The notes below the pieces were generated by a model. The model ran no database searches and was not told the origin of the DNA. It saw only the letters and a program-made list of their open reading frames with translations. Of a stretch of 64,000 nt of DNA, positions 13,209-23,588 are shown piece after piece. This stretch comes from Streptomyces sp. NBC_00440 (GTDB lineage Bacteria; Actinomycetota; Actinomycetes; Streptomycetales; Streptomycetaceae), in assembly GCF_036014215.1 (NCBI RefSeq), contig NZ_CP107921.1, positions 2,675,501-2,739,500 on the forward strand. The letters are read 5' to 3'. Made by a program: the position numbers and the translations under genes. Numbering within the stretch: the first letter of the stretch is position 1; each line of letters opens with the position of its first letter.

Positions 13209-13430
13209 TCAAGGCAGGAGGTTGGACTGCCCTGCCCTGACGCTCTTGGTGAACAGGTTGTAATCCTCGCGGGAGACGATCAGAACCTGGGCGTCCGGAT
13301 CCCCCACGTCCACGGAGTCGCGCAGTGCCACGACTCCGTCCACGAACGCGACCTCCAGGCAGTTGTTGCCACCATTGGACATTTCGCTCTTGGCCCAGAC
13401 GGCGTTGGCCAGGTCGACCTTCTTGTTCAT
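13209..13430 (-). CDS. DUF397 protein, small partner of the XRE regulator (73 aa)
   Basis: WAKSEMSNGGNNCLEVAFVD followed by VVALRDS is the DUF397 signature. Streptomyces chromosomes carry many DUF397 genes directly beside a DUF5753 helix-turn-helix gene, as here (2 nt between stop and start). Some such pairs act as toxin-antitoxin-like or developmental regulators; the molecular role of DUF397 is not settled. The order and coupling with the regulator at 13,433 support a functional pair. Confidence 0.88.
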   Translation of the reverse strand: MNKKVDLANAVWAKSEMSNGGNNCLEVAFVDGVVALRDSVDVGDPDAQVLIVSREDYNLFTKSVRAGQSNLLP

Positions 13431-13432
13431 GT

Positions 13433-14296
13433 CTAGCAGTCCTTGATCAGTTCATGGATGAAGCGACGGGTCGCTTGGGCGTCGAGGGCTTGTGTACGGA
13501 GAGTATCGAGGGCAGTCCCGTACCGGTCCACGTCTCCATCTTCCTCCAGGTACACGGAGGTTGTCTTCGTCTCAACGAGAGCAACCGGCGGCCCCACCTG
13601 GAAGTGTAGGAGCTGGAACGGCCCGTCGATCCCTGCGTGAGCGCCTGCATCGAAGGGGAGGACCTGTATAGCTACATGACTGTACTCGTCTGTCACTTTG
13701 AGTAGCCATTCAAGCTGGCCCTTCATGACCTCGGGGCTACCCACGACGCGACGCAGCGCCGCCTCGTCCAGAATGCACCACAGGTTGAGCGGCTGGTCAC
13801 GGGTCAGGGCATCCTGCCGAGCCAATCGCAAGTCTACGAACCGGTTGACCTCTCGCTTCGAGGACCACACCTGACTGCGCTCAACGATCGAGACTGCGTA
13901 CTCCCTCGTCTGGAGCAGCCCCGGAACGACTTGGAGAAATGACTCAGACTTGGATGCCATCCCTTCAAGGTGGAGGTAGTCCTCGAACCCATGAGTTTGG
14001 ATCGCCTCTTTGTACTCGTCGAGCAGGTTGGTCCGCTTGCCCGAAGCAGCCAGGGCGGCCATAGCTTTGATCCGAGTCCTGGTGTCTTCCGGCTCCACGC
14101 CGTAGACCTGGAAGAAGGCGGTCAGGCCGAGGCCCGACACTCGCTGTTTGCCATTTTCGATCTTGCTTAGGGCTGGCTTGCCGGACAGCCCAAGGTGTTC
14201 TGCGGCGTCCTCCATGCTGAAGCCCGCGGCTATGCGGATGGACCGCAGCGCCGATCCGAGTCGACGCCTGTGCACGTTAGGTCGCGCTTCCGCCAT
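13433..14296 (-). CDS. XRE-family regulator with DUF5753 domain (287 aa)
   Basis: GGGAGG precedes the ATG at 14,296 by 6 nt. Residues about 10-70 form an XRE helix-turn-helix (RRLGSALRSIRIAAGFSMED, then GLSGKPALSKIENGKQRVSG); residues about 95-280 are a DUF5753 domain (LLQTREYA; HVAIQVLPFDAGAHAG). These proteins partner with DUF397 proteins and are often called Scr1/WhiJ-like. The upstream 14,365-14,459 region carries a cluster of GTTGC/GCAAC half-sites likely to be its operators. It is divergent from the HATPase gene at 14,531, a common arrangement in Streptomyces. Confidence 0.88.
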   Translation of the reverse strand: MAEARPNVHRRRLGSALRSIRIAAGFSMEDAAEHLGLSGKPALSKIENGKQRVSGLGLTAFFQVYGVEPEDTRTRIKAMAALAASGKRTNLLDEYKEAIQTHGFEDYLHLEGMASKSESFLQVVPGLLQTREYAVSIVERSQVWSSKREVNRFVDLRLARQDALTRDQPLNLWCILDEAALRRVVGSPEVMKGQLEWLLKVTDEYSHVAIQVLPFDAGAHAGIDGPFQLLHFQVGPPVALVETKTTSVYLEEDGDVDRYGTALDTLRTQALDAQATRRFIHELIKDC

Positions 14297-14364
14297 GACC
14301 AACCTCCCTCGGGCCCGCAGCGTATCGCGGGCCGCTGAGGGGTCATATGCCAACTTCTGATTCG

Positions 14365-14459
14365 AGCAACGTTTCTGTGATTCGGGGTTGCTAGCAACGT
14401 TTCTCATAGGCCATCGTTGCACATGGCAGAGCAACCGTGTGGCGACAGACGGTAGTTGC
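14365..14459. promoter_or_regulatory. Operator cluster between XRE and HATPase genes
   Basis: Six GTTGC/GCAAC half-sites lie within 95 bp. They include a perfect 12-bp palindrome GTTGCTAGCAAC (14,387-14,398) and an inverted pair with 10-nt spacer (14,416-14,420/14,431-14,435). AGCAACGTTTCT occurs twice (14,365 and 14,393). It lies between divergent genes, so it is the likely binding region of the XRE regulator; autoregulation is inferred. Confidence 0.6.
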
Positions 14460-14530: not shown

Positions 14531-14953
14531 GTGCCTACGACTGCGACCCGGCCCAATGCCATTGGTGCCCCCGGCTATAGCGAGACCTGGCCCTGCGAGC
14601 CGGAGACCGCCAGTCGTGCCCGCAGCTTGGTCCGCGCGGCCTTATATACCTGGAAGCTCGATGTACTCGTTGACGACGGAGTGTTGATTGCTTCTGAGCT
14701 GGTGGGCAATGCCGTGCAGCACAGCAGATGCCGCCTCCTGCGGGCCAGTGTCGTCTTGCTGAGCCCCGGACGTGTACGTCTGTCCGTCTCAGACCGGTCA
14801 TTAGCTCTGCCGAAGGTGCAGGAAGCCGGTGAGGAGTCCGTGACTGGCCGCGGCCTGATGCTGATTGACGAGCTGGCTGACCGCTGGGACACAGATGTTC
14901 GGCGGTGGGGGAAAGTTGTATGGGCTGAACTCCACGTCAGTGGTGACGCCTGA
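14531..14953 (+). CDS. HATPase_c-type ATP-binding protein, anti-sigma-factor-like (140 aa)
   Basis: The GTG start follows GGAGGGATGACCC. The N-box is ELVGNAVQHS (about 56-65), the G1-type motif is SVSDRS and the G2-type GRGLMLIDELA. Small single-domain proteins with these GHKL motifs are abundant in Streptomyces and many resemble RsbW/SpoIIAB-type serine kinases, but no anti-anti-sigma partner is adjacent. The arrangement HATPase gene / operators / XRE-DUF397 pair is a recurrent Streptomyces neighbourhood. It overlaps the next gene as TGATG. Confidence 0.82.
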   Translation: MPTTATRPNAIGAPGYSETWPCEPETASRARSLVRAALYTWKLDVLVDDGVLIASELVGNAVQHSRCRLLRASVVLLSPGRVRLSVSDRSLALPKVQEAGEESVTGRGLMLIDELADRWDTDVRRWGKVVWAELHVSGDA

Positions 14954-15372
14954 TGGGCCGCGAATCGTACTGGTGCCAGTTATCGGCCGGCCCCGCCGAC
15001 CATTCCGCAGCGATCGTCCTTGGCTGCTCTCCGGTGAGAAACCGACGCCTTGCGCTTCGGTGGATGAGAGGACAGGCCCAACGGGTAGTTCGAGCCCTTG
15101 ATCCTGACCCGTCTGACTGGTGGGTCGCCAACGCTCCGCTGCACCAGGTGGACACGTCCTTCCACGCCCCTGACCCTGCGGAGGCTCTGCGGGTCTGGGT
15201 TGCCGATGCCTGGGAGCACGATGCGGTGATGCGTGTACTCAACAGAGGACAGCCGTACTCACTCACCGTTTACGACCAATCTGCCTACTACTCCCTCTCT
15301 GCCAGGCCAGCTTCAGTGGCCTTCGGGACGGAGTTACGCGACCCAAGACCTGTTCACTGCGCGGTCGCCTAA
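14953..15372 (+). CDS. Hypothetical protein (139 aa)
   Basis: Its ATG shares a base with the preceding stop (TGATG). It is rich in Arg and Trp (LALRWMRGQAQRVVRALDPD; DPSDWWVANAPLHQVDTSF). No domain recognised. Co-translated with the HATPase protein, so likely functionally linked. Confidence 0.6.
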   Translation: MGRESYWCQLSAGPADHSAAIVLGCSPVRNRRLALRWMRGQAQRVVRALDPDPSDWWVANAPLHQVDTSFHAPDPAEALRVWVADAWEHDAVMRVLNRGQPYSLTVYDQSAYYSLSARPASVAFGTELRDPRPVHCAVA

Positions 15373-15376
15373 TGCC

Positions 15377-15463
15377 CCGCTCTGGTCACGTGCTGTCTTT
15401 CACCCTCGGCCCACCTGGTGGTCGGGGACGACACCGGGCTCCCCCGCCCCGTGACCAGAGCGG
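15377..15463. repeat. Perfect 14-bp inverted repeat separated by 59 bp
   Basis: CCGCTCTGGTCACG (15,377-15,390) and CGTGACCAGAGCGG (15,450-15,463) are exact reverse complements. They lie between the 139-aa gene and the small-peptide gene. They may pair as a long-range RNA stem or serve as a looped operator pair. Confidence 0.6.
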
Positions 15464-15515
15464 TTCCAAGCTCCCGCCCAATTGCCTCATCAGCGGCAGT
15501 CGGGCGGGTGTACGA

Positions 15516-15540
15516 CGGCTCAGGGAATCTCCCTGAGCCG
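15516..15540 (+). terminator. Tight hairpin ahead of the peptide gene
   Basis: An 11-bp perfect stem CGGCTCAGGGA/TCCCTGAGCCG with a 3-nt loop ends 22 nt before the peptide ATG. It could terminate the upstream HATPase transcript or act as an attenuator for the cassette. Confidence 0.55.
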
Positions 15541-15562
15541 ACCGGAGAGAGAGGACGTTCCA

Positions 15563-15700
15563 ATGGAACAGGCAACCTCAGCCCAGCCCACGCCCGAGAG
15601 CAGCGATCTGCTGATCTCCCGCGAGCAGGTCACCGCGGCGCGGGCCCGGATGTTCGTCCCGTCCGACAACACCGCCGGCAAGTCCGACGGCAACGACTAA
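15563..15700 (+). CDS. 45-residue peptide, candidate substrate of the cassette
   Basis: MEQATSAQPTPESSDLLISR begins the product, and RMFVPSDNTAGKSDGND ends it. GAGAGAGGA lies upstream with slightly long spacing. There is no signal peptide or cysteine. The N-terminal two thirds look like a leader (acidic, helical LLISREQVTAARAR) and the last about 16 residues are polar Ser/Asn/Asp/Lys. It lies 15 bp before a JmjC oxygenase gene and heads a four-gene co-directional cassette, the layout of a RiPP precursor followed by tailoring enzymes. The reading as precursor peptide is inference; a small regulatory or ribosomal-mimic peptide is possible. Confidence 0.5.
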   Translation: MEQATSAQPTPESSDLLISREQVTAARARMFVPSDNTAGKSDGND

Positions 15701-15715
15701 CGGAACGGACCACAC

Positions 15716-16900
15716 ATGACCGCGCTTGATTCTGCGGTCGTCGCGCGCCTCGGTGAGGACTTCCTCGCCGAGGCGTTCGGCCGCAGCTACCGCCTGTCTC
15801 GCGGCGATGCCGCGTCTGTCGCCGACATCATTACTTGGGCCGATATCAACGAGGTCTTAGCCCGGCACCGCATGGAACCACCCCGGTTGAGGCTCTCGGC
15901 CGAGGGGGTGGCCCTCCCGCTCGACGCCTACACGGTTCCCGAGGTGGCCAAGCGTCGTACGGTCTTCCATCGGACCCACCCGGCCGCGCTGCACGAGCAG
16001 CTAGCCAACGGGGCCACGCTGGTCGTTGACGCTGTCGATGAGTTGTTCCCCGGTGTCGAAACCCTCGCCTCCGAGCTGGAGACCGCGTTCCGATCCAAGG
16101 TCCAGGTCAACTTGTACGCGTCCTGGACGGGCCGCGAGGGCTTCGGAGTGCATTGGGACGACCACGATGTGGTCGTGGTGCAGGTCGACGGCTCGAAGCG
16201 CTGGAAGCTCTACGGCCCCACCAGGTCGGCGCCCATGCATTTGGACATGGCAGAGCCTGAACAACCGCCCGAGGAGCCCGTAGCGGAGTTCGTTCTCACC
16301 CCCGGCGACGTGCTCTATCTCCCGCGCGGCTGGTGGCACGCCGTCTCCGCGTCCGAGGGCGAGCGGTCCCTTCACCTGACGTGTGGGCTGAGCGTGGCTA
16401 CAGGTGCCGACCTCATCGTGTGGCTATCGGAGATCCTGCGTGAGCACGAGATCGTGAGGGCGGACCTGCCACGCTTCGGTACCGACAAGGAGCGATCCGA
16501 GACCGCGTCGGCACTGCGGGACCTTCTCGTCGCCGAGCTGAGCGATCCGGAAGTGATCGGCCGGTACTTCACGCTCAAGGATGCGGACGAGCGGGTGAGG
16601 TTCCGCCCGAGTCTCCCGTATGTCTCCGGCCTACCAGCCGACCCGGACCTGGTGGCCCGCCTCCTCACCACACGCCACGACCTACGGCTCACTGCCGAAG
16701 GGAACGCAGTTCTCACGGCAGGTGGGGAGACGCTGACTCTTGCCGGGGCCGCTCACCCCCTGCTGCTGGCCCTGGCCGACCGGCAGCCTCACCGGCTCGG
16801 GGATCTCGCCTCTGCCGCCGAACTCACAGTTGAACAGGTCGCCGGGGTGGCGTGGGAGCTGGTAAAGGTGCAGATCGTCACAGTAGATGGTGCCCGATGA
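15716..16900 (+). CDS. JmjC-domain cupin oxygenase, ribosomal-oxygenase-like (394 aa)
   Basis: The fold is of the YcfD/MINA53/NO66 type: a double-stranded beta helix at about residues 60-225 with Fe(II) ligands His146-x-Asp148 (VHWDDHD) and His208 (PRGWWHAV), followed by helical dimerisation and winged-helix-like segments (about 250-394). Lysines in SKRWKLY (161-164) could hold 2-oxoglutarate. Family members hydroxylate Arg or His of ribosomal proteins; some bacterial relatives modify ribosomally made peptides. The adjacent peptide gene is the obvious substrate, but ribosomal protein targets are not excluded. The stop overlaps the next ATG (ATGA). Confidence 0.8.
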   Translation: MTALDSAVVARLGEDFLAEAFGRSYRLSRGDAASVADIITWADINEVLARHRMEPPRLRLSAEGVALPLDAYTVPEVAKRRTVFHRTHPAALHEQLANGATLVVDAVDELFPGVETLASELETAFRSKVQVNLYASWTGREGFGVHWDDHDVVVVQVDGSKRWKLYGPTRSAPMHLDMAEPEQPPEEPVAEFVLTPGDVLYLPRGWWHAVSASEGERSLHLTCGLSVATGADLIVWLSEILREHEIVRADLPRFGTDKERSETASALRDLLVAELSDPEVIGRYFTLKDADERVRFRPSLPYVSGLPADPDLVARLLTTRHDLRLTAEGNAVLTAGGETLTLAGAAHPLLLALADRQPHRLGDLASAAELTVEQVAGVAWELVKVQIVTVDGAR

Positions 16901-17793
16901 CCGCAAGTCTCGGCCTCGGAACCTACCGACTGCGCAGCCTTCCCGAAGCGGCGAAGGCCGCAGTGGCCCACGGAGCCGACTGGATCGACACGGCCCCCAA
17001 CTACCTGCACGGGCAGGCGGAGCAACAGCTCAAGCCCGTTCTCGCCGCCTATCCGCTGGTCCCCGTCTCCACGAAGGTGGGCTTCTTCACCCCCGAACAG
17101 GCGCGGCGGGCTCTCGCGGCCGGCGTCCTGACCAAGGAGGAAGCGGAGGCCGGCCACTGCCTCAGCCCGCGCGCTGTTCTCTGGCAGGCTCAGCAGAGCC
17201 GCGCCGCGCTGGGACGCGTCCCTGACATCACCTTCGTGCACAACCCGGAGCGCGGACTCCACACCCGCCGCGAGTTGGAACCACGGCTGTATGAGGCTTT
17301 CGTCGCGCTGGAGAAGTGCGTAGACCGTGGCCTCACCAAGGGCTACGGCGTCGCCACCTGGGGAGCGGTGCACGAAGGTCTCACCTCGATCAACCGCGTC
17401 GCCGAGATTGCCTGGCAAGCGGGACGAGGCAAATCCCGACTCAGGGGGATCCAACTGCCACTTTCCATCATCCAGATCGGCCCTCTGGCAGACGCCATGA
17501 ACGGGTACGGCGCACTGCCCAGTGCTCAAGTTCACGGCATCGACATCTTCGCCTCCGCACCCCTGCACGGAGGCGAACTCCTGGGAATGATCCCCGAGCC
17601 CGTTGCTGAAGAGCTGGCTCCGGGGTCAGGCCCGCTACGCGTAGCCCTCGGCTTTCCCGCGTCGGTGCAAGGTGTGAAGCGTCTGCTCCTCTCCGCCTCC
17701 TCTGCGCAACACTGGGCGGAAGCCGCGGAAGCCATCGAGGTACCACTCCCCGACAAGCACATGAAGGAAATCGCGAGTGCCTTCGCTCCCTGA
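16897..17793 (+). CDS. Aldo/keto reductase (298 aa)
   Basis: The catalytic tetrad is visible: Asp31 and Tyr36 (DTAPNYLHG), Lys60 (VSTKVGF) and His115 (FVHNPERG). The length fits a single (beta/alpha)8 NAD(P)H-dependent reductase. The C-terminal half lacks an obvious classical 2'-phosphate motif that I can name. It overlaps both neighbours, so it should be made with the JmjC oxygenase; a reductase acting on a product of an oxygenase is an attractive pathway logic, inferred from layout. Confidence 0.82.
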   Translation: MTASLGLGTYRLRSLPEAAKAAVAHGADWIDTAPNYLHGQAEQQLKPVLAAYPLVPVSTKVGFFTPEQARRALAAGVLTKEEAEAGHCLSPRAVLWQAQQSRAALGRVPDITFVHNPERGLHTRRELEPRLYEAFVALEKCVDRGLTKGYGVATWGAVHEGLTSINRVAEIAWQAGRGKSRLRGIQLPLSIIQIGPLADAMNGYGALPSAQVHGIDIFASAPLHGGELLGMIPEPVAEELAPGSGPLRVALGFPASVQGVKRLLLSASSAQHWAEAAEAIEVPLPDKHMKEIASAFAP

Positions 17794-18610
17794 TGACAGC
17801 AAGATCGTTGCGCGCATGTGCGCGCAACTCGATCACGCCGCTGACACCTTCGGGTGCAAGCGGGAAGTGGGCGGCACAGAAACGTGGGGCTGGGGCGGGC
17901 GATCGTTGTCCGCCCCGGTCATGTTCGAGGGCCGCCAGTACTGGCTTCGAGTTGCCGAGATGCCTCGCGGCAAGGGCCCCTCGTCGGCCTGGGACGGCCC
18001 CGAGGCCGCCGCGTTGCACATCCCCCGCAAGGTGCCGCGGCCTCGGTTCGCGGGGGCGCGTCGATGGGACCTTGCAGAGTTCTCCTACTACGCAGATCTT
18101 CATGCCCACCTGCGCGGTCGTCCACTTTCAAAAACCGCACTTCCGCCCGAGGGACTGCGGCCCACGGCCGACTGGTGGGACCGACTATCAGATGCCCTGA
18201 CCGCCATCTCCCGCGTCTCGACGTCGCGCGTCACGGTCCGCGCAGAACGGCTGACTTGGGCCATGCCACGCTTCCTCGGCGACGATGCCCCCGCGGAGCC
18301 ACCGAACTGGACCACTGCACACGGGGACATTCAATGGTCCAACCTGTCCGGCCCCACTCTGGAAATCATCGACTGGGAACGGTGGGGGCAGGCTCCGGAG
18401 GGCTACGACGCTGCCGTCCTGTACGTGTCCAGCCTTGCAGCCCCGGATGTGGCGCGTCAGGTCCGGGATCGTTTCGGCGAACTGCTGTCCTCACCGTCAG
18501 GCCGCTTCGCCCAGCTCTACGCGGCCAGTGAGTTCATCCAGGGATTCGAGCGCGGGAACAATCTGCTGCTCGAACCTCCCATCCGCAACCTGGTAGCCAG
18601 GCTGCTGTGA
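17777..18610 (+). CDS. Aminoglycoside-phosphotransferase-fold kinase-like protein (277 aa)
   Basis: The GTG start lies 17 bp inside the reductase gene. The C-lobe has the Brenner motif AHGDIQWSNL (His182, Asp184, Asn189) and the metal-binding IIDW Asp199, the arrangement of APH/choline-kinase-fold phosphotransferases. The N-lobe is shortened and lacks a clear lysine-glutamate pair, although YWLRVAE may hold the strand with a conserved-like residue. Substrate unknown: a small molecule, sugar or peptide hydroxyl. The placement as last gene of the cassette suggests phosphorylation of the cassette product or self-protection. Confidence 0.7.
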   Translation: MPSLPDDSKIVARMCAQLDHAADTFGCKREVGGTETWGWGGRSLSAPVMFEGRQYWLRVAEMPRGKGPSSAWDGPEAAALHIPRKVPRPRFAGARRWDLAEFSYYADLHAHLRGRPLSKTALPPEGLRPTADWWDRLSDALTAISRVSTSRVTVRAERLTWAMPRFLGDDAPAEPPNWTTAHGDIQWSNLSGPTLEIIDWERWGQAPEGYDAAVLYVSSLAAPDVARQVRDRFGELLSSPSGRFAQLYAASEFIQGFERGNNLLLEPPIRNLVARLL

Positions 18611-18626
18611 CGTGAATGAATGAATT

Positions 18627-18659
18627 AGAGGCCCGGACACTTCTCCTGTCCGGGCCTCT
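18627..18659 (+). terminator. Hairpin, copy of the recurrent element terminator
   Basis: A 12-bp stem AGAGGCCCGGAC/GTCCGGGCCTCT surrounds the loop ACTTCTCCT. It lies between the convergent cassette (ending 18,610) and DUF2637 gene (ending 18,672), so it can serve both strands. Confidence 0.75.
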
Positions 18660-18671
18660 GTCATTCGCTGG

Positions 18672-19424
18672 TCAGATCGTCAGGGGAAGCATCTCCCCCG
18701 CTGACTGCTCTGCCTCATGCTCGGCCACCTTCACAGCCTTCAGTTCGGCCCTCTTCATCTGGGCCATGTAGCGGCGGGCCGTACGGGGAGCCCGGCCAAG
18801 AACCTCCCCCAGGGTCTCGGGGGTCACGTCCCTCCCGGCCGCTTCCAGGTTGGCAATGGCCTTATTGACTTCGTCCTCGGACAGACCGGGGCGGCCAGGC
18901 TTGCCCTTCCGGCAAGGTGTCTCGGCCGCGTCGTCATCATCTTCGAATGTGTCCTCCAGCTCCTCGATTTCGACCTCAGATGCGGTGGACTCGGGAGCCG
19001 CGGCCATGTGAAGCATGTGGAAGGCGACCAGCGGCGGAATGGCCGACACGGCGCCGACCAGGAGCCAGGACGTGTTCATGTAGTCCTGCTGGATCAGGTG
19101 GGACACATCCTGAGCCGTCAGGGCCAGAAGCAGAGCGGCCACGGCACCCGCCACAGCGGACCTCTGATTAGGCAGGCAGAGACGCTTGGCCACATCCGCG
19201 ATGACCGCAGAGCAGGCCGCATAGACGGATACACAGACTGGCATGAGCCAGGCCACATTGAACGTCCAGAGGCCAAGCAGGTTCACGGAGTCCCATCCGG
19301 CCACTTTGGCCAGGTGGACTTCTCCGGGGATGGACATGAGGAGTGCGGTCAGAAGGACCACAGGGCGGCCGTATTTGAACACGACCTTCGCGTACGGAGG
19401 CAGGTCGATACTGACAGTGGACAC
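18672..19424 (-). CDS. DUF2637-type membrane protein with C-terminal HTH-like region (250 aa)
   Basis: Four hydrophobic segments lie in the first 150 residues ([65 protein letters not shown]), followed by an acidic linker and a helical tail TPETLGEVLGRAPRTARRYM resembling a helix-turn-helix. DUF2637 proteins occur on Streptomyces plasmids, integrative elements and phages near replication/transfer genes. The GTG start follows AGGGGA. Role unknown; a membrane-tethered regulator of element maintenance is conceivable. Confidence 0.7.
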   Translation of the reverse strand: MSTVSIDLPPYAKVVFKYGRPVVLLTALLMSIPGEVHLAKVAGWDSVNLLGLWTFNVAWLMPVCVSVYAACSAVIADVAKRLCLPNQRSAVAGAVAALLLALTAQDVSHLIQQDYMNTSWLLVGAVSAIPPLVAFHMLHMAAAPESTASEVEIEELEDTFEDDDDAAETPCRKGKPGRPGLSEDEVNKAIANLEAAGRDVTPETLGEVLGRAPRTARRYMAQMKRAELKAVKVAEHEAEQSAGEMLPLTI

Positions 19425-20600: not shown

Positions 20601-22148
20601 TCACCCGACGGCGGAGACCTGGACCGACTTCACAACTTCACCCTCGATGATCAACGGACTCTCCATGGCCACCTTCTCCGGCCAAGCGGTGCCCTTGCCG
20701 ATCATCATCCGGAAGTTGGACTCCAGGAGTCGCTTCCGTTGGCCTTCGAGGTCCAGCGTGGCCCACAGCTCTGCATAGGTCATGCCTTGATCGATCTCAA
20801 CCCACCCAGACTTGATCACGGGCATGGCCTTCAGTTCGGTCCGGCGCCCCTTGAGACGGTTCATCCGCTGCCGGTACTCAGCGCGGTCGTCTTCCCAGTC
20901 ACCTTCCTCGTCCTGACGCATCAGGCGCCGGATCTTGGCCTCCACCTGATCCAGCTCCCGAGCGCTGTCGGAGCCAGCAACCCACACGCGCTTGGTCACG
21001 CGCTCGTGGCCGTGAAGCTGAAGGAACAGCACTTCCATCATCTCTTCCACGATCTCGGCCCGACAGCTGATGCCCTTACATCGCTTGGCGTTGGGCCAGT
21101 TACCGCACACGTAATACCGGTACTCCAGGCCGTTAGCGTGGCCTCGCGAGACCTTGTGGTTGCCGTTACTACCGCACCCCGAACAGATCGCGACTCCGTA
21201 TGCAGGGCTCGTCATGTTCACGCGGCGAGCCGTGGTCACGCTGCGCGCCCTTACCGCCGCCTGAAGCGTCTCCCACTCCTCCGTCGTGAACACGGGATCG
21301 GCGATCCGGACGGGGTCGCCGTTGTCATCCCTGAGCACCTTGCCTCGGTACTTCTTATAGCCAAGTAGCGCCTGGTTCGTCAGCAGCGCCTTTACCGAGC
21401 CGTTCGACCACAGCTCCCGGCTCCCCTCCTGGCTCTTCCGCAGCGCCGACTTGCTCTTGGTCGCCTTACCGCGGGCGACCCGCGCACGGTCCCGTGCGGT
21501 AAGAACGTCACCGCCATTGAGCTTGGCCTCAATGCCCGAGTGAGGTTCGTTGGCTACGGCCCACTCACGCATCCGATGAAGCCAGACCACCATCTCTTCG
21601 TCCAGCTCGATGAAGGCGACTTGTTTACCGTCCACGTAGCGGTGAACAATGCGGTACCCGAACGGGGCAATGCCTCCCGGCCAGCGGTTCGTGAAGCGCC
21701 GGCGGTCGTGTGAGTCCTGGATGCGCTGCTTGATGCGCTCCAGCTCCTTATGCGGACCGAGACTCTTCACGTGCAGAATCGCGCGACCTTCAGGGGTCTT
21801 CATCTGCTCCGTGAACGAGGGGTCATCTAGGACATGTATCTCCTTGCCCCATTCGAGCATTTTGAACACAAATGACATGAAGTGCGGCTCACTGCGGCTG
21901 AGCCTGTCCTGATTCGTAACCCACAGCTCATCCCACTCTTCACGCCTGTCTACGGCCAGCCACTCACCGAGAGCTGGCCTGTCGAACATGTCCACATCGC
22001 CGGACACGGACACGTCCGCCGTGATGCCAACAACGCGGGCCGCCTCTTCGGCGGCCCGCGTCTTCAGTCTGGCGTCTTGAGCCTCGATCGACTCACTCTT
22101 CTCGTCCCGGCTGTAGGAGATCCGTTCAGCCAGTAGCACACGTCTCAC
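20601..22148 (-). CDS. Large serine recombinase / integrase (515 aa)
   Basis: The N-terminal resolvase domain has the nucleophile serine in ISYSRDEKSESIEAQ, then VTNQDRLSR. A recombinase domain follows (WPGGIAPFGYRIV), then a zinc ribbon with CSGCG and CGN, KRCKG, and a coiled-coil C-terminal part (ELDQVEAKIRRLMRQDEEGD). This is the phiC31/TG1 type of site-specific integrase. The GTG at 22,148 is chosen because AAGGA lies at proper distance; a GTG two codons upstream is possible. Its gene lies at the element boundary, reading inward, about 50 bp from the disrupted helicase start. Confidence 0.9.
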   Translation of the reverse strand: MRRVLLAERISYSRDEKSESIEAQDARLKTRAAEEAARVVGITADVSVSGDVDMFDRPALGEWLAVDRREEWDELWVTNQDRLSRSEPHFMSFVFKMLEWGKEIHVLDDPSFTEQMKTPEGRAILHVKSLGPHKELERIKQRIQDSHDRRRFTNRWPGGIAPFGYRIVHRYVDGKQVAFIELDEEMVVWLHRMREWAVANEPHSGIEAKLNGGDVLTARDRARVARGKATKSKSALRKSQEGSRELWSNGSVKALLTNQALLGYKKYRGKVLRDDNGDPVRIADPVFTTEEWETLQAAVRARSVTTARRVNMTSPAYGVAICSGCGSNGNHKVSRGHANGLEYRYYVCGNWPNAKRCKGISCRAEIVEEMMEVLFLQLHGHERVTKRVWVAGSDSARELDQVEAKIRRLMRQDEEGDWEDDRAEYRQRMNRLKGRRTELKAMPVIKSGWVEIDQGMTYAELWATLDLEGQRKRLLESNFRMMIGKGTAWPEKVAMESPLIIEGEVVKSVQVSAVG

Positions 22149-22174
22149 GGTCACTTCCTTACTTTGACCTGCAC

Positions 22175-22200
22175 TTATGCGTTTGTCAAAGCACTGGGAT
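22175..22200. other. Approximate right attachment junction of the element
   Basis: The helicase-like reading frame loses its expected sequence after codon 14 (CGGATC then CCAGTG), so the recombination point is placed at about 22,186-22,200. The exact core cannot be defined without the left junction, which lies outside the window. Confidence 0.45.
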
Positions 22201-22239
22201 CCGCTCCAGGACCCCTTCCAGCACTGCCATGTTGGACAT
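22186..22239 (-). pseudogene. 5' fragment of a RecD-like (RecD2) helicase gene
   Basis: The frame reads MSNMAVLEGVLERIPVL then stop. The first 14 residues match, from memory, the start of the actinobacterial RecD-like ATP-dependent helicase (MAVLEGVLERIT...). The rest is missing, and the serine recombinase begins 38 bp further on, so the element most likely entered this gene after about codon 14. The remaining gene should lie at the left end of the element. Identification rests on a short match. Confidence 0.55.
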
Positions 22240-22362
22240 GGTGCGACGTTACCGCCGGGGTCCGACAGCCCGGTACGGGGAAGCGGCACCGGCCGGTGGG
22301 CGTGACCGTCCGGGCGCCCCGGCCGCACCGTCACGATCGGATTACGGAATGCCGGACTCCTC

Positions 22363-22412
22363 TTGACCGCCACCCATGTAATCGATTCCAATCTCCCGTG
22401 TAATCGATTCCA
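22363..22412 (+). promoter_or_regulatory. LacI-type double operator and promoter of the ribose operon
   Basis: TGTAATCGATTCCA occurs twice, at 22,377-22,390 and 22,399-22,412, 22 bp apart (two helical turns). Each is a near-perfect palindrome around a central CG, as for LacI-family operators. TTGACC at 22,363 can serve as -35; the -10 is not clear. It is upstream of the LacI gene, so autoregulation of the whole operon is likely. Confidence 0.7.
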
Positions 22413-22439
22413 TGCGGCCCACAAGGAGGTGGTCCAGCG

Positions 22440-23588
22440 ATGGCGAGCATCAAGGACGTCGCAGCCGGCGCGGAGGTCTCCGTCGCCACGGTGTCCCGGG
22501 TACTCAACGGTCATCCGTCGGTCAGGCCCGACACCCGCACCCGGGTGATGGCCGCCGTGGAGGCCCTCGGTTACCGGCCGAACGCGGTCGCCAGGTCGCT
22601 GCGCACCCAGCAGACCCGCACTCTCGGCCTGGTCATCAGCGATGTGCTGAACCCGTACTTCACCGAGCTGGCCCGCTCCGTCGAGGACGAGGCGCGGGCG
22701 CACGGCTACAGCGTGATCATCGGCAACGCCGACGAGCAGCCCGCCCTCCAGGACCACCACATCCGCACCCTCGTCGACCGCCGGATCGACGGTCTGCTGG
22801 TCAGCCCCACCGACGGCGGCTCACCGCTGATGCTCGACGCGGTCAGGGCAGGCGTGCCGATGGTCTTCGTGGACCGCTGGATCCCGGGCGTGGACGTCCC
22901 CGTCGTACGGGCGGACGGGCGCGAAGCCGTCCGCGACCTGGTCGCCCACCTGTACGCGCTGGGCCACCGCAGACTCGCCATCATCGCGGGCCCGGCCACG
23001 ACCACCACCGGCAGCGAGCGGGTGGACGCCTTCCGGGAGGCGCTGCGCGAGCACGGACTGCCGCTGCCCGACGCCCGGATCGGGCACGGCGACTTCCAGG
23101 CGGGCAGCGGGCACCGCGAGGCGACCCGGCTGCTGGCACTCGCCGAGCCCCCCGACGTGATCTTCGCCGCCGACAACCTGATGGCGCTGGGCGCGATGGA
23201 CGCGATCCGCGCCCACGGTCTGCGCATCCCGCAGGACATCGCGCTGGCCGCCTTCGACGACATCCCGTGGTTCGTGCACACCGACCCGCCGATCACCGCC
23301 ATCGCCCAGCCGACCGGCGAACTCGGCCGGGCCGCCGTACGCGCGCTGATCGACCGTCTCGATGGCCGCGAGCCGCACTCCGCGATCCTCCCCGCCCGGC
23401 TGGTGGTCCGCCGCTCGTGCGGCGAGCCGCCGGCCCCCGTGACCACGGCCCCCGCCGGCGCAACTCCCGCGCCCACGACCGGCGTCCGTGCGACGCCCGT
23501 GACCATGCCCCCCGCCGCGGCACCCGGCTCCACGACACCCCCCGCACCCCCGTCCCCCGCCCCCACGCCGAACAGGAGCAACCGGTGA
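22440..23588 (+). CDS. LacI-family transcriptional regulator (382 aa)
   Basis: The N-terminal helix-turn-helix (SIKDVAAGAEVSVATVSRVL) and hinge (AVEALGYRPNAVARSL) are followed by a periplasmic-binding-like effector domain (about 60-330). The last about 55 residues are an unusual Pro/Ala/Thr-rich tail with no LacI counterpart. AAGGAGG precedes the ATG. It heads the ribose transport operon with a tandem operator upstream. It probably senses ribose or a related sugar and represses the operon; effector unproven. Confidence 0.9.
   Translation: MASIKDVAAGAEVSVATVSRVLNGHPSVRPDTRTRVMAAVEALGYRPNAVARSLRTQQTRTLGLVISDVLNPYFTELARSVEDEARAHGYSVIIGNADEQPALQDHHIRTLVDRRIDGLLVSPTDGGSPLMLDAVRAGVPMVFVDRWIPGVDVPVVRADGREAVRDLVAHLYALGHRRLAIIAGPATTTTGSERVDAFREALREHGLPLPDARIGHGDFQAGSGHREATRLLALAEPPDVIFAADNLMALGAMDAIRAHGLRIPQDIALAAFDDIPWFVHTDPPITAIAQPTGELGRAAVRALIDRLDGREPHSAILPARLVVRRSCGEPPAPVTTAPAGATPAPTTGVRATPVTMPPAAAPGSTTPPAPPSPAPTPNRSNR

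Follow-up and report, generated by a model that had tools for sequence, protein, structure and literature searches.

What does a bacterial JmjC oxygenase act on when its gene stands directly behind that of a very small peptide? The question is raised by four genes that run in one direction (15563-18610) in a 64,000-nucleotide stretch of Streptomyces sp. NBC_00440 (contig NZ_CP107921.1, positions 2,675,501 to 2,739,500; hereafter the window, whose positions are counted from its first letter) and encode a 45-residue peptide, a JmjC oxygenase, an aldo/keto reductase (AKR) and a kinase of the aminoglycoside phosphotransferase (APH) fold. We argue, with a probability of about 0.85, that they form a cassette for a ribosomally synthesised and post-translationally modified peptide (RiPP), with the small peptide as precursor and the products of the next three genes as the enzymes that modify it. 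The basis for this reading is gene order, coupling, co-conservation, intact catalytic residues, and a peptide with a conserved leader-like part and core. Judged from its sequence, the cassette looks like an uncharacterised route to a modified, acid-rich peptide. Its parts are as follows.

15544..15555, + strand: purine-rich ribosome-binding stretch ggagagagagga, 5' of the peptide ATG (from the sequence).
15563..15700, + strand (codons 15563-15697 plus stop): 45-residue precursor-like peptide, leader-like LLISREQVTAARAR and core-like PSDNTAGKSDGND (from the open reading frame, ORF, and its relatives).
15716..16900, + strand: JmjC Fe/2-oxoglutarate (2OG) oxygenase, like the ribosomal oxygenases (ROX), with a C-terminal winged-helix domain (model residues 313-391) resembling a RiPP recognition element (RRE) (from Pfam, motifs, the AlphaFold2 (AF2) model and fold match).
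16897..17793, + strand: AKR, D31/Y36/K60/H115 intact (from Pfam and motifs).
17777..18610, + strand: APH-fold kinase-like protein, HGD/N189/D199 intact, GTG start (from motifs, AF2 model and Foldseek).
18627..18659, no strand: 13-bp perfect inverted repeat agaggcccggaca/tgtccgggcctct with a loop of 7, 3' of the last gene, terminator-like without a T run (read from the sequence).

A gap of 15 bp separates the peptide from the JmjC gene, the JmjC and AKR genes overlap by ATGA, and the AKR and kinase genes overlap by 17 bp. The ORF coordinates thereby bear out the order, direction and coupling given in a preliminary description of the locus; its starting point, 15377, takes in upstream DNA only, as the peptide ORF begins at 15563. 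GAGG sits 8 nt ahead of the peptide ATG, and a purine-rich stretch precedes the chosen start in most relatives, where the start chooser favoured such stretches. A promoter and terminator scan of 15300-18800 returned none; it needs a T run and so passes over the repeat at 18627..18659. For a defence-system reading, PADLOC gave no match at E 0.01 among six proteins of the cassette region.

The peptide is conserved along two of its parts. Among 41 aligned peptides M1, L16, D35, G39, D42, N44 and D45 are invariant, A25, A26, R27, R29 and S34 are nearly so, and the N-terminal residues are free to vary in kind and number. The consensus joins a leader-like GLLVARRxIxAARxR to the C-terminal PSDGGSTGRSDGND; the core motif of the peptide is SDGGSTGRSDGND, the core pattern of the alignment is SDxxxxGxSDxND, and Cys is absent from all 41 sequences. 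The leader-like N-terminus and polar end first remarked on in the single window peptide are thus traits of a family. This family escapes current family libraries: NCBIfam has no match for the window peptide or seven related peptides, Pfam has none for the window peptide, and in six Streptomyces plasmid regions the peptide is annotated as 'hypothetical protein' in five and unlisted in one.

By the preliminary description, the case turned on whether peptide and JmjC gene are conserved together; they are, whichever of the two the search starts from. Starting from the enzyme, 295 Streptomyces genomes yielded 116 with a JmjC relative at E <= 1e-20, a good part of which are distant; 36 fall below 1e-85, and 30 loci were kept. 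From GTDB species genomes we kept the best 80 of at least 163 relatives. These two JmjC-picked sets, which overlap in species, make up 110 loci including the window's own, with hosts that include Streptomyces, Kitasatospora, Streptacidiphilus, Actinacidiphila, Wenjunlia, Actinomadura, Spirillospora and Actinocorallia. The peptide core lies directly 5' of the JmjC gene in 108 of the 110, in 107 by pattern and in L103 by eye, Ala having taken the place of G39 there so that the pattern missed it. At the other two loci, L022 and L110, only GKGDGND-stop remains before the JmjC start. Counting matches at E <= 1e-8 on the same strand, the AKR occurs in 99/110 loci and the kinase in 107/110; the three without a kinase match are L103 and two loci cut by a locus or contig end (L012, L066). 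The closest relative of the window copy, L031 from Streptomyces sp. AC1-42W, has a JmjC protein 86% identical and an intact peptide.

The reverse test started from the peptide. A profile built from 41 chosen sequences matched 15 times in 394 genomes of the class; 13 of these matches fall below E 1e-13 and the remaining two are weak. A JmjC profile searched in a draw matched in size and composition found 14 genomes with a place of at least 431 bits, the next down scoring 337. By coordinates, all 13 strong peptide matches adjoin one of these 14 window-clade JmjC genes, and the only JmjC gene left without a strong peptide match, in G173, is the L022 case. Nine profile-found loci with wide flanks hold peptide, JmjC, AKR and kinase without exception (the AKR of L130 in two frames); around L135, one of the weak matches, none of the three enzymes occurs in 6.8 kb. 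It had also been held that isolated JmjC genes without a peptide would speak against the cassette. Such genes do exist, most of them long-branched and outside the window clade. The elements by which a RiPP locus is recognised in genomes—an encoded precursor, a conserved leader and core, and adjoining genes for modifying enzymes—are therefore all present.

The catalytic residues pointed out beforehand in the three enzymes are nearly invariant in relatives. The JmjC protein matches PF08007 (JmjC_2, E 2.2e-30) and keeps H146, D148, H208 and K161 in 110/110 relatives; K161 aligns to a lysine of NO66 and is presumably the 2OG-binding residue. Its closest solved folds are NO66, MINA53 and the bacterial YcfD/RoxA, and it has the structural marks of a ROX enzyme: the JmjC fold, HxD...H and a C-terminal winged helix. 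In the AF2 model the elements of the C-terminal end run E313 E322 E331 E338 H344 H361 H372 E388, a predicted order that contains the strand-strand-strand-helix-helix-helix of an RRE with an extra strand at each end. The AKR matches PF00248 (E 1.2e-17) and, weakly, phrog_8735 (E 5e-6); it has no solved relative by sequence at E 0.001, and its tetrad is kept at D31 in 98/99, Y36 in 98/98, K60 in 98/99 and H115 in 98/99 relatives. The window kinase has no Pfam match and is annotated as 'hypothetical protein' in 6/6 plasmid regions viewed. Four related kinases were scanned: three match PF01636 (E 1.2e-5 to 0.0085), L144 does not, and only L034 exceeds the curated cut-off. The AF2 model of the window kinase (predicted local distance difference test 94) points to the APH fold through a Foldseek match to APH(4)-Ia (E 1.4e-9), and H182 and D184 are kept in 107/107 relatives, N189 in 105/107 and D199 in 104/105.

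How might these proteins work together? In our proposal the RRE-like winged helix at the C-terminus of the JmjC protein would hold the leader segment LLxxxxxIxAARxR, and the catalytic domain would beta-hydroxylate an Asp or Asn in the C-terminal core SDxxxxG(K/R)SDxND. Asp/Asn beta-hydroxylation is our leading chemical proposal, made by analogy and given roughly even odds, because hydroxylation of peptidyl side chains is established for ROX-type JmjC enzymes and the invariant core residues are Asp, Asn and Gly. The APH-fold enzyme would phosphorylate a hydroxyl of the core, either a native Ser/Thr or the new beta-hydroxyl; this step is likely, if less certain, since only the JmjC protein and the peptide are more constant in the window clade than the kinase. 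With similar reserve, the AKR might reduce or oxidise a carbonyl or alcohol formed on the core. Since no protease or transporter gene was recognised among its conserved neighbours, trimming and export, if any, would fall to host functions, or the product would stay inside. The earlier interpretation, in which the enzymes hydroxylate, reduce or phosphorylate the small peptide, is supported overall; the reactions themselves are predictions.

A narrower proposal, which made the core's second Ser/Thr the target of the AKR, was rejected as a rule: L126 and L132 have Gly there yet carry an AKR. Nine AKR-less loci keep the peptide, and the residue at this site is Gly in eight of them (L011, L017, L047, L052, L059, L071, L075, L084) and Ser in the degraded L103. 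Loss of the AKR may have been a single event, because the four AKR-less loci placed in the JmjC tree form one clade inside the window type.

Several other explanations deserve attention. The short ORF could be a mere translational leader (an upstream ORF or attenuator) for the JmjC gene, as its length and its position 8-15 nt ahead of the next gene in most loci would allow; we find this scarcely credible, since the amino-acid motif is kept across families despite variable length and spacing and since, over the last 27 codons, third positions change most (7931 differences vs 4534 and 4623 at the other two). The JmjC protein could instead be a ribosomal oxygenase, as its closest solved folds are, modifying a ribosomal protein among accidental neighbours. 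We regard this as very unlikely: the two-way co-occurrence in the 394 genomes points to the peptide as substrate, and the patchy distribution (36/295 Streptomyces genomes with a match below E 1e-85) and the carriage on plasmids and a prophage are unlike those of a housekeeping enzyme. A peptide that is translated may, finally, be a partner rather than a substrate—a small regulatory subunit, an antitoxin-like protein or an immunity peptide—with the enzymes acting elsewhere. No product is known, kinases of the APH type and AKRs usually act on small molecules, and the relatives on plasmids and the prophage copy of the window lie beside regulator-like genes, all of which would suit such a role. 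It is nevertheless improbable, because the conserved residues are concentrated in the polar C-terminal stretch and a short leader-like segment, and because in other JmjC clades the upstream ORF stays rich in Asp while its sequence changes, down to tandem repeats, as a substrate core would.

The RiPP reading, which we prefer, has to bear a number of contrary points. The modified peptide is so far unobserved. The ratio of nonsynonymous to synonymous differences (pN/pS) over the last 27 codons is 0.52 in 943 pairs with at least 60% identity, which is moderate only, and the closest pair, the window and L031, differs at 10 sites (4/1/5 at codon positions 1/2/3), a distribution that does not show coding constraint. 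Counts over the 110 loci are not independent because near-duplicates, such as L003/L034, are included, and at L095 the matched frame holds the peptide core only. The AKR is missing at 11 loci (the eight with Gly named above, L022, L110 and L103) and lies in two pieces at L012, L042 and L095; L103 lacks both AKR and kinase. At L031 (7182-7802 of that locus) the AKR reading stops early, where the DNA homology ends, and the kinase match 4 kb further on is only 48% identical. The weak peptide match at L136 (4085-6171) has a related peptide with AKR and kinase and no JmjC gene within ~6 kb. Given the 11 loci without AKR and L136 without JmjC, the parts of the cassette are separable. In the genome searches scoring was confined to the top candidates of a permissive initial screen (18 per genome for the peptide, 4 for JmjC), so that misses are possible. 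No cluster-encoded protease or exporter was recognised among the conserved neighbours, that is, among gene groups present in at least 5 of 80 loci, which rest on rough gene calling and were mostly named by eye.

Does the association reach beyond the window type? We examined 100 loci (L126-L145, L182-L261), nine of them window-type; 98 have a JmjC match, L135 and L136 being dropped. An Asp-rich short ORF stands directly upstream in 87/98 JmjC loci vs 17/451 control gene starts of the same loci, by a rule set after the peptides had been inspected and among related sequences; a first, earlier rule gave 52/98 vs 4/451. The 11 loci without such an ORF by the rule are L137, L138, L139, L141, L194, L208 (which has an upstream ORF with an ambiguous base), L143, L145, L227, L254 and L260. 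JmjC alone is thus no predictor of a peptide, and clades near the window type are.

Four kinds of peptide stand out: the window type, the f17 type, the f18 type and the tandem-repeat type. Peptides of family f17 end in SDGTDSSSDFI or close to it; in this JmjC clade (L166-L175, L177-L181, L182-L187) the upstream peptide of ~35 residues, e.g. MDPIEVEVEDLAEVTSRDITAGGDSDGTDSSSDFI, is strongly conserved, and at L182 a FhuF-like gene follows and a prolyl oligopeptidase gene precedes. Those of f18 and some Streptomyces peptides read DLVVAVExLxxVxDRxD...SDSDGSDG and variants. In several families the upstream ORFs are tandem repeats of DGGADGG or GTADGGSNPEGHDGGADGT, possibly multi-core precursors; such Asp-rich repeats precede JmjC in L197, L199, L200, L201 and many of L198 and L216-L261. 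Suc_Fer-like genes adjoin at L189, L197, L199, L200 and L201, and PF06999 was found beside 4/4 tandem-repeat loci scanned (L197, L199-L201). Other neighbour sets consist of an AKR with or without a divergent kinase; beyond the window type, neighbour identities rest on eight scanned proteins. In a tree of 120 JmjC proteins, built by a quick search, rooted at the midpoint and with its long branches flagged, the tandem-repeat loci and some unlabelled ones stand apart from the rest.

It is conceivable, though we put it forward as a doubtful extension, that the window cassette is one branch of a single, actinobacterium-wide RiPP class whose ROX-like JmjC enzymes convert Asp-rich cores to beta-hydroxyaspartate peptides, which in turn bind iron or some other metal. 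This class would take in, next to Suc_Fer-like ferredoxins, the tandem-repeat cores (DGGADGG..., GTADGGSNPEGHDGGADGT...) and, next to a FhuF-like ferric reductase, the SSSDFI-ending peptide; the window branch, picked up as cargo by a prophage and plasmids, would add the kinase and AKR. Metal binding by the cores is speculative and is suggested because of these iron-related neighbours, Suc_Fer-like and FhuF-like.

The cassette had been described as cargo of a mobile element, and this element is a prophage of ~58 kb, of low GC, that reaches from ~36.1 kb left of the window to 22198. The relative G023 has an empty site, and 15 bases, GATCCGCTCCAGGAC, are common to both element ends. The features around the cassette are these.

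13209..13430, - strand: DUF397 protein (PF04149, E 1.6e-11), which we take to be the partner of the XRE regulator.
13433..14434, - strand: XRE-type regulator with DUF5753 (PF19054, E 4.9e-52; Sco1979-family model below its cut-off).
14531..14953, + strand: HATPase_c_2 protein, probable cargo regulator (PF13581, E 4.3e-9; relatives near some other copies).
14953..15372, + strand: 139-residue protein between the HATPase gene and the peptide (no Pfam match; phrog_32738, function unknown, E 1.6e-14).
20601..22150, - strand: large serine integrase at the prophage right end (true start near 22150, approximate, not 22760).
22198..22212, no strand: right attachment region with the 15-base GATCCGCTCCAGGAC; left end ~36.1 kb left of the window (from the empty-site comparison).

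The cassette and the XRE, DUF397 and HATPase genes are prophage cargo near the serine integrase, whose Resolvase domain starts at residue 165 of the 20604-22604 reading, near 22112, with the element end near 22198. A PHROG scan of ten proteins, eight left of the window and two inside, matched portal, major head, tape measure, tail, DNA polymerase, ribonucleotide reductase and, weakly, primase; with portal, head, tail and replication proteins among its matches, the element is a siphovirus-like prophage, and its portal shares 79.6% identity with the portal of Streptomyces phage Ponzi. The GC content of the cassette is 0.64-0.67 vs 0.56-0.64 for the surrounding prophage in most 2-kb windows. No JmjC relative was found by tblastn in 50,697 phage records, and none was confirmed in a pattern scan of IMG/VR; yet phrog_8014 (E 2.6e-27) and, less strongly, three further PHROG families, all of unknown function, do match the JmjC part, so distant JmjC-like proteins exist in phages. 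JmjC relatives (E <= 1e-20) occur on 42 plasmid records, 37 of them from Streptomyces, and 20 span at least 80% of the query. By profile, six plasmid regions hold peptide, JmjC and kinase in all six and the AKR in five.

Beyond the cassette the recurring recognised neighbours are regulator-like. One family is present in 44/80 loci, with an opposite-strand member ending less than 1 kb upstream of JmjC in 32/80; fewer loci have XRE/DUF5753-like, HATPase or other small families, whose names were given partly by resemblance to window proteins. In 6/6 plasmid regions viewed (L146-L151) a gene of 413-473 codons lies divergent beside the cassette, and five of the six belong to the regulator-like family. 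Five divergent genes were scanned: three have HTH_31 (E 5.9e-6 to 0.017) and four have tetratricopeptide repeat (TPR) models, mostly below curated cut-offs. A helix-turn-helix (HTH)/TPR-type product of this kind could sense the cassette product.

Through the cassette, a set of bacterial JmjC oxygenases whose annotation goes no further than 'cupin domain-containing protein', as in 30 plasmid records among the matches listed, gains a specific candidate substrate that can be tested. If Asp-rich cores are indeed hydroxylated, one assay would tie a whole JmjC branch to ribosomal peptide chemistry. As enzymes of a RiPP pathway the AKR and the APH-fold protein would be out of the ordinary, and carriage as prophage cargo opens the possibility of a biosynthetic function borne by lysogeny.

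How does the cassette compare with known systems? Class V lanthipeptide and thioamitide clusters also place an APH-like kinase in a RiPP cluster; a class V lanthipeptide was rejected for the window, as the 41 peptides hold no Cys and the cassette genes, by Pfam, no lyase family. PesH is an MNIO-type enzyme and not a JmjC protein. In the excerpts drawn on here, beta-hydroxyaspartate, the chemistry proposed for the window cassette, is placed on precursor peptides by PesHI in nitrilobacillins (PMC13060819) and by SmaO (cited in PMC13097080), in clusters that differ from the window's. The biphenomycin pathway (BipG/BpmG) likewise encodes a JmjC Fe/2OG enzyme with a precursor peptide, BipG hydroxylating an Orn side chain of that precursor (excerpts of PMC12707348, PMC12257519). 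There the core is Phe-Arg-Phe and the partners are an MNIO, a B12-dependent radical SAM enzyme, an arginase and a TldD protease, whereas the window has an Asp/Ser/Asn-rich core with an AKR and an APH-fold kinase. A biphenomycin-type pathway was rejected, as MNIO and B12-dependent radical SAM enzymes are absent from the cassette genes by Pfam and the core SDxxxxGxSDxND has no FRF. PF08007 JmjC proteins with RRE-like domains, and bacterial homologues (~30% identity) in RiPP-like neighbourhoods, are described in PMC12710340; they share family and RRE-like domain with the window enzyme, and the excerpted part of that account describes no precursor family, AKR/kinase partners or Asp-rich cores. NO66, MINA53 and YcfD/RoxA share the JmjC fold, the HxD...H triad and a full-length structural match including the C-terminal end, but at ~20% identity, and the genomic partner of the window enzyme is a small peptide. 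Searches of open-licence papers, judged by the titles and abstract openings listed, turned up neither this precursor family nor the JmjC/AKR/APH set nor an Asp-rich JmjC class. The word 'undescribed' used in the preliminary description would, as far as these searches reach, suit the precursor family and the enzyme set and needs a qualifier for the rest, because JmjC hydroxylases of RiPPs (PMC12707348) and fusions of RRE-like domains to PF08007 JmjC (PMC12710340) are, by the same excerpts, in print. The novelty would lie in the precursor family and its enzyme set, added to a known presence of JmjC enzymes in RiPP pathways.

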